Shown here: positions 8,875-16,467 of the stretch, in pieces | How the letters are laid out: the number at the start of each line of letters is the position of its first letter | Position numbering within the stretch: position 1 is the first letter of the stretch | NCBI GenBank assembly: GCA_018266355.1 | Contig: JAFEAP010000014.1 | Location: forward strand, 1-64,000 | Direction of reading: 5' to 3' | DNA: 64,000 nucleotides | Origin: Bdellovibrionales bacterium | GTDB lineage: Bacteria; Bdellovibrionota; UBA1018 | Notes under the pieces: model-generated | Told to the model about the DNA's origin: nothing | What the model saw: only the letters and a program-made list of their open reading frames with translations | Database searches by the model: none | Position numbers and translations under genes: made by a program

Positions 8875-9615
8875 TCACGATTCCGCCCGCAAGATCACGA
8901 TCTCGATCCGGCGATTCGCCTGGGCGGGGCGCCCCGGCTTCGGTTCGAGGGGCCGGTATTTCCCGAAGCCGGCCGACTCGATCTTCACCGGATCGAGGTC
9001 GAATTTCCGCATCCAGTACTGGGCGAGCGCCGCGGATCTCGCCGCCGACAGCTCCCAAGTATTCGCGTAGTCGGAAGCCTTACGGGAGATCGCTTCCGCG
9101 TCGTCGAAATCCGCATGTCCCTCGATCCGGAGCCTCCGCCCGGATTTCACGATCAGTGCCCCGAGCCGATCGACGAACGGCCGGATCGCGGCGGTCACCT
9201 TCGCGCTGCCCGGGGCGAAAAGGTTCGGAGCCGCCACGCGCACGAGGAAGTCCCCGCTCGCGAGATCGAGCACCTCGACGTCGGACTGTTCCTTCGCCTT
9301 CTTCCCGTTCGCGTCGGTCGCGAGAAAAGCCCGAGCCTCGCCGAGGATCGCTTCCTGGAGATCCGCATTCGCGCCGGCGGCCTTCGCGGCGGCCCCGGAA
9401 TCCGCGGGCGCCTCTTTCGCGGGAGCGGCGGCCTTCGGCGGGGCGTTCTTCAATGCCGCGATTTCGTCTTGGAGCCGGCTCGCCTCCTTTTTCGAGAGCG
9501 AGTACCGACTCAAGCAAAGCGCGAAGAGCAACAGCATGACGATCGCGAACGCGAGCGTCCAGCGGTTCTCCGAAGGGGCGGAGCTCGAGACGCGGGCGGC
9601 GCGGGCGGAACTCAT
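8875..9615 (-). CDS. MotB-like protein: one membrane segment plus OmpA C-terminal domain
   Basis: 246 residues. One membrane helix (about 18-36), an Ala/Pro-rich linker, then an OmpA/MotB peptidoglycan-binding domain (FAPGSAKVTAAIRPF, RIEGHADFDD, LSAARSAALAQYW, GFGKYRPLEP, NRRIEIVI). It overlaps the MotA-like gene by ATGA, as in stator pairs. In MotB the membrane helix follows W-x-V-A-Y-A-D with a proton-carrying Asp; here WTLAFAIVM has Ile in that place. It may therefore not conduct protons. Confidence 0.75.
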   Translation of the reverse strand: MSSARAARVSSSAPSENRWTLAFAIVMLLLFALCLSRYSLSKKEASRLQDEIAALKNAPPKAAAPAKEAPADSGAAAKAAGANADLQEAILGEARAFLATDANGKKAKEQSDVEVLDLASGDFLVRVAAPNLFAPGSAKVTAAIRPFVDRLGALIVKSGRRLRIEGHADFDDAEAISRKASDYANTWELSAARSAALAQYWMRKFDLDPVKIESAGFGKYRPLEPKPGRPAQANRRIEIVILRAES

Positions 9616-10337
9616 CCGGCGACGACCTGTTTCAGGCGTTCCTCGATCAGGTGCGGGTTCAACCCTTCTTGGATGCCGAGGATCGCGGCCTTTACCATCT
9701 CGTCCGGTACGACGGAGTCTTCGAGAAGTTTGCGCCGTCGCGCCGCGAGCGGAGAAAAGACGAAGTTCGCGAAGAAGAATCCGTAGAGTACGGCGGACAT
9801 CGCCGCCGCGATCCCCCGGCCGAGCTGGGCCGGGTCGTCGAGCTTCGCGAGCGCCGTCAGGAGCCCGAGCGTCGCGCCGAGCGCGCCGATCGAAGGCGCC
9901 GCCGCGGCCGCGATGTCCCAGATCTTCACCGTCGCTTCGCCCTCGCGGATCCGCCGATCGATGCTCGCGTCGAAAAGACCGCGGATCGATCCTTGGTCGA
10001 AACCGGAAATCAGGTATTGGATCCCGTCCTTCAAGGAGGCGCGCGAAGCGCTCGCCCGAAACGAGTCGAGCGCGAGGAATCCCTCCTTGCGGGCGACGGA
10101 AGCGAGATCGGCGAGCTCCTTCTTCAACCCGCCGACGGAACCCGCCGCATCCGGAGCCGGCCGGAACGCGAGTCCGAACTCACCTTTCGGCGCGCTCAAG
10201 AAGGTCGAAAGAAAGGTTCCGAAAAGCACGAAGCAGAGGGAGGCCGGCTGGATCAGGTCGGTCAAGACGCCGCCATTCCAGAGGTGAACCACGACTACGA
10301 TGATCGCGCCGAATACGAGGCCTATGCCGGTCTTCAT
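9612..10337 (-). CDS. MotA/TolQ/ExbB-type proton-channel family protein, MotA-like
   Basis: 241 residues from the ATG at 10337 (AGGAGC just upstream); the longer frame to 10457 overlaps a divergent gene. Two N-terminal helices, a cytoplasmic loop and two C-terminal helices with IWDIAAAAAPSIGALGATLGLL and AAAMSAVLYGFFFANFVFSP match MotA. No flagellar gene is nearby, so this pair may be an orphan stator or a gliding/envelope motor. First gene of the operon with the MotB-like, SIMPL and PAP2 genes. Confidence 0.75.
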   Translation of the reverse strand: MKTGIGLVFGAIIVVVVHLWNGGVLTDLIQPASLCFVLFGTFLSTFLSAPKGEFGLAFRPAPDAAGSVGGLKKELADLASVARKEGFLALDSFRASASRASLKDGIQYLISGFDQGSIRGLFDASIDRRIREGEATVKIWDIAAAAAPSIGALGATLGLLTALAKLDDPAQLGRGIAAAMSAVLYGFFFANFVFSPLAARRRKLLEDSVVPDEMVKAAILGIQEGLNPHLIEERLKQVVAG

Positions 10338-10408: not shown

Positions 10409-11755
10409 ATGGCATCAGCACCCTCATCCGCTTCGCGAAACCGCGGAGCGCTGGCATTCGATTTTTGGCTCAGTCTCGGTCTCGTCGCGCTCGTTTCCGG
10501 CGCGCTCTCGCGTTCGGTGCGCTGGTCGCCACTGCTTCACCTCGGTCTCCCTCTCGTGCTCTTGCCTTTCCTTCGTTATGCCTTCTATCGGTTCACCGGC
10601 ACGACGCCGGGGCAGTTCCTCACCGGACTCGAGTTCCGACTTCCGGGCGGCGGTCGCGCCACTCGCCTTTATGACTGGCTCTTCAACATCCAATCGCAGC
10701 TCGCCGATGAACGCGCGGCTCCGATCCCGATGGTCGCCACGCTGATCGCCGGACTGATGTTCACCGGCGGCGCGACGGTCTTCCTCTGGATGCGAGATCC
10801 GACGCTTCGACCGCTAAGAACGGAGGTCGTGCCCCTCTTCGCGCCCGACTCCGCGAACGCGCGCGACTGGCAAATCCTCCCCTTCTTCTATGCGACCGGC
10901 GCGTTCCCCGTCCGGCTCTTCGCCCACGGCCAGCCCACGGCGGAAGAGAAAGGCGAGCTCAGCGTCGAGTTCGGTTTACCCTACGAAAAAGGACCGCCGA
11001 TCCGGTTCATCAAGAAGATGACCGCGTATTGGAGGGACCTCGACTCGCGCCTCACGCTCACGGGACCGCTCTCGGCGGCCTCGCCGGCGACGCCGGAAGC
11101 GCTTCACGAATGCTTCGCGGGATGGTTCCGCTGCGCCGGCGATCGACGGAAGATCTGGGAAAATCAGATCGCGCCTCAAATCACCGGTCGAGCGCTCGTC
11201 GAAAATTACTGGTTCACGACCGACAACCCGTTTCTCGCCGCCGACGAGCGCCCGCAAGGCATCTATTTCAAGACGTCCGTCGACCGCGGATTCGTCCGCG
11301 AAGCCTACGTCCTCGTCGGCCCCCGCATGGCGATCCAGTCCTTCGTCCTCGATCGCCCGGATCGGCCGGAGGGAGTCGCGGCGTCGGAGACGCTTCGGAA
11401 GGTCGTCGGCAGTCTCCGCATGTCGGGCGATCTCCAGGCCCCCCGCGCGTTCGTGAACCCGAAACTCGCCGCGCTTCGCATCGGGCCGAAGAGCACGCTC
11501 GCGGACCTCGTCGCGGCCGAGGGGTATCTCCTCGCGAAGGTTTCGATCGAACCGAAAGAGGCGGAGTCCTTCTACCACCTCGGCGGGCTCGCGCTCACTC
11601 TCTTTCATGCGGCGAAACGCGAAGGGCGGATCGAACTCGCGGCGAGCTCGAAGACGATCGTGAAGAGCGCGGTGCGTTTCGCCCGCGACGTCGATCCGAA
11701 CTCGAAACGACTTCCCGAGATGGAACGCTTCGAAGTCGAGGTCGAGGCGCCATGA
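10409..11755 (+). CDS. Membrane protein with RDD-like N-terminus
   Basis: 448 residues. Two to three N-terminal helices (about 14-60 and 105-125) enclose GTTPGQFLTGLEFRLPGG, which recalls the GxTxGKxLLGLRV block of RDD proteins. The larger C-terminal part (about 130-448) is probably extracytoplasmic and unknown to me. Its stop codon overlaps the start of a repeat peptide gene (CCATGAG). Divergent from the motA-like operon with 71 bp between start codons. Confidence 0.6.
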   Translation: MASAPSSASRNRGALAFDFWLSLGLVALVSGALSRSVRWSPLLHLGLPLVLLPFLRYAFYRFTGTTPGQFLTGLEFRLPGGGRATRLYDWLFNIQSQLADERAAPIPMVATLIAGLMFTGGATVFLWMRDPTLRPLRTEVVPLFAPDSANARDWQILPFFYATGAFPVRLFAHGQPTAEEKGELSVEFGLPYEKGPPIRFIKKMTAYWRDLDSRLTLTGPLSAASPATPEALHECFAGWFRCAGDRRKIWENQIAPQITGRALVENYWFTTDNPFLAADERPQGIYFKTSVDRGFVREAYVLVGPRMAIQSFVLDRPDRPEGVAASETLRKVVGSLRMSGDLQAPRAFVNPKLAALRIGPKSTLADLVAAEGYLLAKVSIEPKEAESFYHLGGLALTLFHAAKREGRIELAASSKTIVKSAVRFARDVDPNSKRLPEMERFEVEVEAP

Positions 11756-11850
11756 GCGAGCAATTCTGCAGAGGCGCCATGAGCGAGCAATTCTACAGAG
11801 GCGCCATGAGCAAACAATTCTGCGGAGGCTCCGTGAGCACGGCCCTATGA
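11752..11850 (+). CDS. 32-residue repeat peptide bridging two genes
   Basis: The frame starts with an ATG that overlaps the previous stop (ATGA) and ends with a TGA that overlaps the start of the pseudouridine synthase (ATGA at 11847). It encodes three 9-residue repeats, MSEQFCRGA, MSEQFYRGA and MSKQFCGGS, then VSTAL. Each DNA unit carries AGAGG four nt before an in-frame ATG, so each unit is itself a possible start site. The downstream gene lacks its own ribosome-binding site, so this frame may pass ribosomes on to it. Whether the peptide is functional is unknown. Confidence 0.55.
   Translation: MSEQFCRGAMSEQFYRGAMSKQFCGGSVSTAL
11752..11850 (+). repeat. 27-bp direct repeats, three units plus a partial fourth
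   Basis: Units begin at 11752, 11779, 11806 and 11833 (partial, 18 bp), each starting ATGAGC (GTGAGC in the last). Units 1 and 2 differ by one base (TGC/TAC); unit 3 has more changes. The unit duplicates the stop/start junction itself and keeps frame (27 = 9 codons). Confidence 0.9.
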
Positions 11851-12893
11851 ACTCCACCGCTCGCCTACGCGCCCGCGGGGACGGAAAACTGCGGACCGAG
11901 GAGCTCGTCGCCGAGGCGATTCGCGCCGTCGCCTCGTCGCCGGAGACCCTGGCCGATTTCGCCCGCCATCCGATCCTTTCCGCCCTCTCCCCCGTCACCC
12001 TCCTCGGAAAGGTTTCCCGCAAACGCGCGACCCGCCTGATCGAAAGCGGAATCCTGAGCGCCGAGTTCGAACTCGTCCCGGACACGATTTTCCCGCGGGG
12101 ACGGGAGCTCGACGTTTCGCTCCCGCTCGTGATCCTCCTCTCCGAACTCGACCTCCTCCCGCCGTCGGCCGCCGTCGGCGCACCACCGCTTCCGATCGTT
12201 TTCGAGAACGACGATTTTCTTGCCATCGACAAACCCGCCGGACTCCCCTCGGCGCCGCTGCGTTCGGACGATCCGGACTCGGCCGTCCAACGCGTGCTCG
12301 CCATCCGCCCGGCGATGCCGATCCTCCGGGGCAATCCCCTCGAACCCGGCCTCGTCCACCGACTCGACACGGGCACGAGCGGGGTCCTCCTCTTCGCGAA
12401 GACCGAAGGCGCGTTCGCCCACATCGACCGGGCTTGGAACTCGGGGGCCGTGCGAAAGATTTACCGCGCGCTTACGCGCGACGGAAAAGGCGGACTCCCG
12501 ATGGGGCGCATCACGCTCAAACTCGGTCACGACTTGAAATCGAAGAAACGCATGCGCGCGGTCGTAAGCGACGCCGACCGCAAGAAAATCCGCGGTGAAC
12601 CGCTCCCGACCGTGAGCGAAGTCTTGACGGTGAAGCGCGTCGTCCGGGCGCCGGACGACGCTCTGGCCGGCGGGCTGAGCGACGTCGAGATCCGCATCGA
12701 GACGGGCGTACACCACCAGGTCCGCGCCACGCTCGCGCACTTCAGCACCCCGATCCTCGGGGACTCCACCTACGGGGGAGCCCCGGAGGAAAGGGTGTGG
12801 TTGCATGCGTGGAAACTGGTACTGCCTACGGGCGATTCGGGGAAATCCCTCGAGATCGTCGCCCCTCTTCCGCCGGGTTGGTTCGGAAACTGA
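11847..12893 (+). CDS. RluA/RluD-family pseudouridine synthase
   Basis: 348 residues. The catalytic block GLVHRLDTGTSGVLLFAKT (Asp174) is diagnostic. IVFENDDFLAIDKPAGLPS and the C-terminal HHQVRATLAHFSTPILGDSTYGG also match. The first 110 residues have the place of an S4 RNA-binding domain but weak similarity (KVSRKRATRLIESGIL). It modifies uridines in rRNA or tRNA; exact target cannot be told. It depends on translational coupling, as it overlaps the repeat-peptide gene and has no ribosome-binding site. Confidence 0.85.
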   Translation: MNSTARLRARGDGKLRTEELVAEAIRAVASSPETLADFARHPILSALSPVTLLGKVSRKRATRLIESGILSAEFELVPDTIFPRGRELDVSLPLVILLSELDLLPPSAAVGAPPLPIVFENDDFLAIDKPAGLPSAPLRSDDPDSAVQRVLAIRPAMPILRGNPLEPGLVHRLDTGTSGVLLFAKTEGAFAHIDRAWNSGAVRKIYRALTRDGKGGLPMGRITLKLGHDLKSKKRMRAVVSDADRKKIRGEPLPTVSEVLTVKRVVRAPDDALAGGLSDVEIRIETGVHHQVRATLAHFSTPILGDSTYGGAPEERVWLHAWKLVLPTGDSGKSLEIVAPLPPGWFGN

Positions 12894-13137: not shown

Positions 13138-16100
13138 TCAGCTGCAACCCATCGAGTTGCCGCAATTCAAGCACTTGTAACAAGCTCCGTTGCGTACGGT
13201 CGTGTGTCCGCATCCGTCGCACGGGGGTGCATCCCCCATCATGTCGGCAAGCAGTTGGTTATTGGACTGGTTCGTCGCTTCTGGCGCGGCCGCCGAAGCG
13301 CTCGCGGGGAGTTTCAGCTCCCCCTGACGCTCGATGCCCGCGATGGGAGCGCCCGAAGCGATCATCTTCGCCGGCTCCTTCGGGTAAATCGCGCCGCTCG
13401 CGCCTTTTTCGGTCGTGAGGTCGACCGGCGCGACCGCCGGCTTCACCTGGAGGAAGTCCGTGCGACCGAGGTACTCCATTCCGAGCACGCGGAAGATGTA
13501 GTCGACGATCGAGGTCGCCATCTTGATGTTCGGGTGCCCGTCGACGAGCCCGGACGGTTCGAACCGCGTGAAGGTGAACTTATCGACGTATTCCTTCAGC
13601 GGGACGCCGTACTGGAGCCCGAGGCTGACCGAGATCGCGAAGCAGTTCATCATCGAGCGGTAGGCGGCGCCTTCCTTGTGCATATCGATGAAAATCTCGC
13701 CGAGGCTTCCGTCCTGGTACTCGCCCGTGCGGATGTAGACCTTGTGGCCCGCGACGGACGATTCCTGGGTGATTCCCATGCGGCGGTTCGGGAGCTTTCT
13801 CCGGACCGGCGCGAAGGTCATCTGACCGGTCGCCGTATTGCTCGTCGCCGAAGCACCGAGCGCTGCCGCCGGGGCGGCTGCCACCGCGACCGCCGACTTC
13901 TTCTCTTCCTGGGCGTCTTCCTTCGTCTCGGACTTGGTCGAAAGCGGTTGGGAAAGCTTGCAGCCGTCGCGATAGAGGGCGACCGCCTTCAGGCCGAGCT
14001 TCCAGCCTTGGTAGTAGATGTCCTTGATTTCTTCCTTCGTAGTCTCGTTCGGGAGGTTCACCGTCTTCGAGATCGCGCCCGAGAGGAAGGGTTGGACGGC
14101 GCCCATCATGCGGATGTGGCCCATCGGCGCGATGAAGCGCGTTCCGGTCTTTCCGCATTTATTCGCGCAATCGAAAACCGGAAGGTGTTCCGGCTTCAGG
14201 TGCGGAGCGCCCTCGACGGTCATCGTTCCGCAGATCACCGTATTCGCGGCGTCGATCTCGGAATATTTCAGTCCCGCCCAGGTAAGGAAATTGAACGTCG
14301 GCTTCTTCGACTCCGACTCCGGCACTCCGAGCTTCGCGAGGAGTTCCGTTCCGAGCGCGTAGGCGCCGAATGCGCTCGAGATCTCGAAAGTGCCGGGAAG
14401 GGCCTTCTCGACCTTCGCGATATCGGCGTCGCCGAACCCTTTCGCGCGCAGCCATTCCGTATTCAGGTGCGGAGCGCCCTCGAAATTGAGCGTGCCGAGC
14501 ACGTAACGGAGGATGTCTTCGATCTGGTCGGCCGAGTAGCCGAGGTTACGCAGCGCCGGCGGAACCGACTGGTTCACGATCTTGAAGTAACCGCCGCCGG
14601 CGAGCTTCTTGAACTTCACGAGCGCGAAGTCGGGCTCGACGCCCGTCGTGTCGCAGTCCATGAGAAGTCCGATCGTGCCGGTCGGCGCGAGCACGGTGAC
14701 CTGCGCGTTCCGATAGCCGTTTTTCTCGCCGAGGCGAAGCGCTTCGTTCCAGCTCTCCTGCGCGGCTTTCACGAGGTCGGCCGGCGCCAGCTTAGCGTCG
14801 AGCTTCTTCGCCGCGTCCCGGTGCATGCCGATCACTTTCAGCATCGGCTCGCGGTTCATCGCGTAGCCCGGGAAAGCGCCCATCGTCGCGGCTTCTTCGG
14901 CCGAAACGGCGTAGGCGGTTCCGCACATCAGCGCGGTGAGCGCTCCGGCCCACGCACGCCCCTGCTCGGAATCGTACGGGATGCCTTTCAGCATCAGGAG
15001 CGTCCCGAGGTTCGCGTAACCGAGACCGAGCGGCCGGTAGTCGTGCGAGTTCTTCGCGATTTCTTCCGTCGGATAGCTCGAGAGATCGACCAGGATCTCC
15101 TGGGCGACGATGAACACGCGACAAGCCTTCGTGTACGCTTCGATATCGAACGAGCCGTCCTCGCGCAGGAACTTCACGAGGTTCAGCGACGAAAGATTGC
15201 ACGCGGTGTTGTCGAGGAACATGTATTCCGAGCACGGGTTCGACGCGTTGATGCGGTCCGTGTTCGCGGACGTGTGCCAGGCGTTGATCGTCGTGTCGTA
15301 CTGGAGCCCCGGATCCGCGCAGGACCAGGCGGCTTCGGCGATTTTATCCCAGAGTTCCTTCGCCTCGTAAGTGTTCACGACTTCGCCGGTCGTCCGGGCG
15401 ATCGTATTCCACTTCTCGCCCTTTTCCACCGCATGCATGAAGGCGTCGGAGACGCGAACGGAGTTGTTCGAGTTCTGGCCGGCGACCGTGCGATAGGCTT
15501 CGCCGTTGAAGTCGGACGAGTATCCGGCCGCGATGAGAGCGGCGACCTTGCGCTCTTCCCGCTGTTTCCAGGTGATGAACTCCATGATTTCCGGATGGTC
15601 CATATCGAGGCAGACCATCTTCGCCGCTCGGCGGGTGGTGCCGCCCGATTTCGTGGCACCGGCGCCGCGATCGAGCACCTCGAGGAAGCTCATGAGGCCG
15701 GAGGAAAGTCCCCCGCCCGCGAGTTTTTCCTGGCACCCGCGGATCTTCGAGAAGTTCGTGCCCGTGCCGGATCCGAACTTGAACAGGCGGGCTTCGTTCT
15801 TCATGAGCGTGAAGAGCGCCATGAGGTCGTCGTCGACCGCCTGGATGAAGCACGCCGAACACTGCGGGCTCGCGTAGGCGTCTTCCGTTTCACGGATGCG
15901 TTGCTGTTCGGTGTCCCAGTAGTAGTTCCCGCCCGATCCTTCGATGCCGTACTCGTGGTAAAGACCGAGGTTGAACCAAACCGGCGAATTGAAGGCGCCG
16001 CGCTGGGTGATGAGCAGGAAAGAGAGTTCGTCCTCGAACGTTTGGGCGTTCACGGCGTCGAAGTAGCCTTGGGCTTCGCCGTATTTCCGGATCGTGCGGG

Positions 16101-16467
16101 CGACGCGGCGGATGACTTGCTTCACGGAGACTTCGTGCCCGGTTCCCGGAACGCCGGCCTTCCGGAAATATTTCGAGACGAGGATGTCGACGGCGAGCTG
16201 CGACCACGCGGCCGGAACTTCGACGTCCTTCATCTCGAAGACGGTCTTCCCGTCGGTGTCCTTGATTTTCGACGTCGCCTTCGCGTACTCGACGCTCGCG
16301 AGAACGTCCGCGCCGGATTTCGTGAAGAAACGGTCCATCCGGATCGGCGCCTTTTTCACGCGCTCGCCCATCGTCTCGGCCACCGGACGGGTTTTCAGGT
16401 TCACTCCGCGCGCGGATTTGCGGGCGGACTTCAAAGACGACGACGATCCTTCGGTGATCTTTTCCAT
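13138..16467 (-). CDS. nrdJ: B12-dependent (class II) ribonucleoside-diphosphate reductase
   Basis: 1109 residues, the usual length for the long NrdJ subtype. It reduces ribonucleotides to deoxyribonucleotides using adenosylcobalamin. Visible motifs: FNSPVWFN near residue 160, SACFIQAVDDD, the NPCSEYMFLDNTACNLSSLNL active-site block (N-x-C-x-E), PTGTIGLLMDCDTTG, and a C-terminal Cys-rich tail CDGCGHTTVRNGACYKCLNCG that binds metal and/or relays thiols. Start ATG at 16467 has TAAGGGGAA upstream. Preceded by a long structured leader and tandem NrdR boxes. No other reductase is in the window. Confidence 0.96.
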   Translation of the reverse strand: MEKITEGSSSSLKSARKSARGVNLKTRPVAETMGERVKKAPIRMDRFFTKSGADVLASVEYAKATSKIKDTDGKTVFEMKDVEVPAAWSQLAVDILVSKYFRKAGVPGTGHEVSVKQVIRRVARTIRKYGEAQGYFDAVNAQTFEDELSFLLITQRGAFNSPVWFNLGLYHEYGIEGSGGNYYWDTEQQRIRETEDAYASPQCSACFIQAVDDDLMALFTLMKNEARLFKFGSGTGTNFSKIRGCQEKLAGGGLSSGLMSFLEVLDRGAGATKSGGTTRRAAKMVCLDMDHPEIMEFITWKQREERKVAALIAAGYSSDFNGEAYRTVAGQNSNNSVRVSDAFMHAVEKGEKWNTIARTTGEVVNTYEAKELWDKIAEAAWSCADPGLQYDTTINAWHTSANTDRINASNPCSEYMFLDNTACNLSSLNLVKFLREDGSFDIEAYTKACRVFIVAQEILVDLSSYPTEEIAKNSHDYRPLGLGYANLGTLLMLKGIPYDSEQGRAWAGALTALMCGTAYAVSAEEAATMGAFPGYAMNREPMLKVIGMHRDAAKKLDAKLAPADLVKAAQESWNEALRLGEKNGYRNAQVTVLAPTGTIGLLMDCDTTGVEPDFALVKFKKLAGGGYFKIVNQSVPPALRNLGYSADQIEDILRYVLGTLNFEGAPHLNTEWLRAKGFGDADIAKVEKALPGTFEISSAFGAYALGTELLAKLGVPESESKKPTFNFLTWAGLKYSEIDAANTVICGTMTVEGAPHLKPEHLPVFDCANKCGKTGTRFIAPMGHIRMMGAVQPFLSGAISKTVNLPNETTKEEIKDIYYQGWKLGLKAVALYRDGCKLSQPLSTKSETKEDAQEEKKSAVAVAAAPAAALGASATSNTATGQMTFAPVRRKLPNRRMGITQESSVAGHKVYIRTGEYQDGSLGEIFIDMHKEGAAYRSMMNCFAISVSLGLQYGVPLKEYVDKFTFTRFEPSGLVDGHPNIKMATSIVDYIFRVLGMEYLGRTDFLQVKPAVAPVDLTTEKGASGAIYPKEPAKMIASGAPIAGIERQGELKLPASASAAAPEATNQSNNQLLADMMGDAPPCDGCGHTTVRNGACYKCLNCGNSMGCS

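Follow-up and report, generated by a model that had tools for sequence, protein, structure and literature searches.

Between a membrane-protein gene and the gene for an RluA-like pseudouridine synthase, the window (the whole 64,000-nucleotide stretch of DNA analyzed here) carries a 27-bp tandem array that forms a 32-codon micro-frame sharing an ATGA with each of its two neighbors. We consider it probable that this array is a lineage-specific tandem duplication that has been tolerated at the junction, that coupling between the two genes is roughly kept by the frame of the array, and that the encoded peptide is a by-product.

Architecture of the junction

The features of the junction are collected in Table 1. 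The membrane gene and the micro-frame meet in the ATGA at 11752-11755, and the micro-frame and the synthase gene in the ATGA at 11847-11850, where the micro-frame stop (TGA, 11848-11850) overlaps the synthase ATG (11847). The micro-frame translates as MSEQFCRGA MSEQFYRGA MSKQFCGGS VSTAL, and an earlier reading made from the sequence alone (the sequence-only reading), in which ATGA overlaps join a membrane-protein gene, a 32-residue repeat frame and a pseudouridine synthase gene, describes the sequence correctly. The stop/start overlap typical of a translationally coupled gene pair is thus present as ATGA at two sites, and in congeners the two genes overlap directly.

Table 1. Coordinates of the features at the junction (window numbering).
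Feature	Position	Strand	Basis or remark
Upstream gene: 448-aa membrane protein, RDD-like N-terminal region	10409..11755	+	ORF; stop TGA 11753-11755 within ATGA
27-bp tandem array, unit GAGGCGCCATGAGCGAGCAATTCTGCA, ~3.5 units	11744..11838	+	TRF score 148
Bridging micro-frame: 32 codons, ATGA overlap at each end	11752..11850	+	Sequence
Repeat unit 1: ATG start, CGAGG before it in the last codons of the membrane gene	11752..11778	+	
Repeat unit 2: ATG after AGAGG; 1 difference from unit 1	11779..11805	+	
Repeat unit 3: ATG after AGAGG; 4 differences from unit 1	11806..11832	+	
Partial unit 4: GTG after GGAGG; ends in the ATGA shared with the synthase	11833..11850	+	
Downstream gene: 348-aa RluA-like pseudouridine synthase	11847..12893	+	Pfam PF00849, E 2.5e-19

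Both neighboring loci lie on the minus strand: a MotA/ExbB-like plus OmpA-domain gene pair (8875-10337) is divergent from the membrane gene, and a class II ribonucleotide reductase gene (13138-16467) is convergent with the synthase gene, and the membrane gene and synthase gene therefore form a two-gene unit. Homologues of the membrane protein occur order-wide and were found in 43 of the 58 related genomes; Pfam gives no match for the protein encoded in the window, and a homologue in a congener matches Pfam RDD at its N-terminus with 24.7 bits against a cut-off of 24.1. The synthase protein scores 106 bits against NCBIfam TIGR00005, under the cut-off of 192.7. At five of the loci examined, the window's included, a member of this membrane-protein family adjoins a pseudouridine synthase gene.

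The array stands out in the window by far, with a TRF period of 27 bp, 3.5 copies, 89% match and a score of 148, compared with 54 for the second-best array and with a best score of 79 across 20 dinucleotide shuffles of the window. Its unit contains the end of the membrane gene (GAGGCGCCATGA), and every copy therefore re-creates a Shine-Dalgarno (SD)-like motif together with a start. The sequence-only reading had taken each unit for an SD-like motif plus a start codon, which is borne out by CGAGG, AGAGG and AGAGG with ATG in the three full units and by GGAGG with GTG in the partial one, the spacing from motif to start being 4 nt at all four unit starts. These motifs were judged as SD-like by their sequence, an exact-pattern search for the 16S 3' end having given no match. 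RNA structure at the junction is no more stable than in shuffles (z 0.38).

Congener junctions and the origin of the array

The gene pair is also present in two genomes of the same genus, and in both the genes overlap directly: the junction in L005 is CAATAATGAAC, a TAATG type with a 1-nt overlap, and that in L006 is AAATGATGC, an ATGATG type in which the overlap is 4 or 1 nt. The C-termini of the membrane proteins from the window and the two congeners (..PEMERFEVEVEAP, ..PEMERFGLEVQ and ..PEMEKFQAEVDAK) align closely by eye, as do the N-termini of the synthases (MNSTARLRARGDGK, MNTLISLSLRGDGT and MQTLVTLEIKGDGK). The synthase start at 11847, which was set by alignment with the N-termini of the two congeners, is therefore the right one as judged from these alignments. 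In L006 the end of the membrane gene includes a GGAGG immediately before the start of the synthase; at the matching place the window has CGAGG, which now precedes the micro-frame instead of the synthase.

Because both congeners have the direct overlap, the array is most simply interpreted as a lineage-specific insertion of ~91 nt at a coupled-type junction, dated by these two congeners alone at 52-55% protein identity; the reverse direction, with loss in both congeners, would be less simple. The 1- or 4-nt overlap of the two genes in both congeners, where the protein ends align, favors the tolerated duplication. With the reductase as query, a metagenome assembly labelled Oligoflexia bacterium came up as a close relative, at 79% identity in the reductase, and a scan with the membrane protein for further relatives found none.

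Proposed coupling across the array

In the explanation we favor, the membrane gene and the synthase gene would have overlapped directly in the ancestral state, and a tandem duplication would then have arisen at their junction. Ribosomes ending the membrane gene would restart at the first ATGA and read 32 codons, ribosomes starting at the inner units would join in the same frame, and all of them would terminate at the second ATGA and reinitiate on the synthase gene. Since the 27-bp unit is stop-free in the micro-frame, ribosomes could pass in this way from the membrane gene to the synthase. Reporters in E. coli and Haloferax show that reinitiation requires overlaps or very short gaps, with a loss of at least 80% across a 38-nt gap in E. 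coli (PMC10666635), so an unbridged gap of 91 nt should break coupling; SD motifs aid reinitiation to a varying degree (PMC6728339). The 4-nt spacing between SD-like motif and start is short, which counts against the favored explanation. Overlapping junctions of the -4/-1 type are common in this genome, at 43 of 201 co-directional pairs, and coupling in this organism is therefore plausible; an SD motif accompanies 19 of these 43 junctions, compared with a background of 13.7%.

To what extent the double overlap itself speaks for coupling can be gauged from its frequency. Frames that overlap both an upstream stop and a downstream start bridge 16 of 691 co-directional pairs in 1.35 Mb, compared with ~9.5 expected from shuffled gaps, and the excess is smaller than it appears because alternative starts were admitted in the observed count but not in the expected one. 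The double ATGA bridge is therefore unremarkable in itself, close to chance, and no evidence of design; the uncommon feature is the array. An intact double overlap has a considerable probability of arising by chance, which also counts against the favored explanation: coupling, if preserved, may be a coincidence and not a product of selection.

This near-chance rate also favors the alternative that the array broke coupling, that synthase translation now begins independently, either weakly or by way of other features, and that the bridging frame is coincidental. The many starts in this genome that have no SD, and the ordinary RNA structure noted above, point the same way. The sequence-only reading was right that the synthase gene has no ribosome-binding site of its own, the nearest SD-like motif being 19 nt upstream of its start, but such a start is common at overlaps in this genome: in 425 kb, 23 of the 37 ATGA-type junctions have a start without an SD. 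Against broken coupling stand the lack of an SD at a normal distance from the synthase start and the overlap in the congeners, and the final ATGA, with an SD-bearing start upstream, is well placed for reinitiation. We consider this alternative unlikely.

A second alternative, raised by the sequence-only reading, is a re-initiation relay in which the SD-start units would act as extra ribosome entry points, the number of units would tune downstream translation, and strains would differ in that number. Every unit does pair an SD-like motif with a start codon in the common frame, which ends at one final TGA, and the unit length preserves the frame whatever the copy number. However, unit 3 is diverged, which argues against frequent expansion, and a search of 1.35 Mb of the genome found no other array with a score of at least 80 at a co-directional gene junction. 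We regard such a relay as quite unlikely, and very unlikely the adjustable form in which in-frame gain or loss of SD-start modules would set downstream output in a graded way; graded tuning by copy number is possible but unsupported. The same reading had also suggested a phase-variable element, which does not hold for switching by frame: the unit length of 27 bp is divisible by three, gain or loss of a unit keeps the frame where a phase-variable repeat would switch it, and on/off switching by frame is therefore excluded.

The micro-frame as a possible protein

In the tolerated duplication the peptide would have no function. The rival proposal, that the product of the 32-residue frame is a small protein with a function, can draw on an open frame that has starts and SD-like motifs, and its other properties speak against it. 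Its codon score is poor at -4.0, where real coding stretches of equal length have a 5th percentile of 1.1 and a median of 10.5; off-frame stretches have 95th percentiles of about -2 and -4.6, and the micro-frame falls in the upper tail of out-of-frame stretches. It is the tail of a 379-codon open frame that crosses the membrane gene in another reading frame, and long open frames of this kind are frequent in GC-rich DNA. The three full units differ from one another by 4 nonsynonymous changes and 1 synonymous change, which matches the expectation without selection, in which 84% would be nonsynonymous at random. Searches for the micro-peptide found no second occurrence in its own genome, no homologue among the 58 genomes from its class and no match in Pfam, and on these grounds a small protein family was rejected. 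We thus see neither the homologues nor the purifying selection of a conserved small protein gene and no sign that the micro-frame is a selected protein, a comparison to which 32 repeated codons give little power; the evolving small protein suggested by the sequence-only reading is accordingly unsupported as a protein under selection, and a functional product appears most improbable.

That the array is an artefact of a metagenome-type assembly is almost certainly wrong, since its units are non-identical, which makes a false expansion unlikely, even though the genome is in 30 contigs at ~93% completeness and tandem copies can be mis-counted in short-read assemblies; the true copy number could be higher.

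Relation to known systems

The 4-nt overlaps at both ends of the micro-frame, and the plain overlap of the congener genes by 1-4 nt, resemble termination-reinitiation pairs of the ATGA/TGATG kind (Huber et al. 2019, PMC6728339; 2023, PMC10666635), from which the junction differs in that a micro-frame made of repeats has been inserted to give two successive overlaps. As in cis-acting short upstream or minigene ORFs, such as the two-codon minigene of axe-txe (PMC8708949), a short frame lies directly before a gene that it may influence; here, in contrast, the frame has 32 tandem-repeat codons that overlap both neighbors, and its effect is putative. The TAACTGA direct repeats of Beggiatoaceae are also tandem repeats directly upstream of start codons, often without an SD, and have been proposed to affect translation (PMC4679880). 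Those repeats are 7 bp long, have stops in all frames and occur at many genes, whereas the window has a single 27-bp array whose micro-frame is stop-free and which carries SD-like motifs. The literature on tandem repeats at coupled junctions yielded no closer precedent.

If coupling is kept, the junction would be a natural case of an operon junction in which a 91-nt insertion is tolerated through the growth of a bridging frame, and an example of a new short coding frame derived from duplication of a gene end; if coupling is not kept, it would be a neutral duplication. Either outcome alters current understanding little.

Further copies and other arrays

With up to 3 mismatches allowed, the repeat unit was found in its own genome at the junction locus only, and the other genomes of the family gave two weak 3-mismatch DNA matches, on which basis a dispersed or mobile repeat was rejected. 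The 58 genomes of the class hold no comparable match to the unit, and this absence from the relatives searched is what the sequence-only reading had named as a sign of neutral duplication. Phage or plasmid origin was rejected, with no match in a phage or plasmid collection and none in viral contigs. Array positions in genome G002 were left uninterpreted, the gene caller's codon model (trained on the window's own genome) having called few genes there, 58 in 329 kb.

Other arrays occur elsewhere in the window's own genome (G000). The whole of one 4591-base contig, G000:C18 (L179), is mostly several tandem arrays with periods of 436, 182, 92, 45, 29 and 2; it is partly AT-rich and has no gene called, compared with a genome of 62% GC, and is possibly a mis-binned contig. 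A 17-bp array, TTGCTCGCGCAAGTCAT, lies in 6.9 copies between convergent genes on G000:C12 (L167:12613-12730), and its unit holds the short inverted repeat TTGC-TCGC-GCAA. On G000:C13 (L171:945-1003), an 18-bp array, CCGACAGGCAAGTCAAAC, lies in 3.3 copies, likewise between convergent genes.
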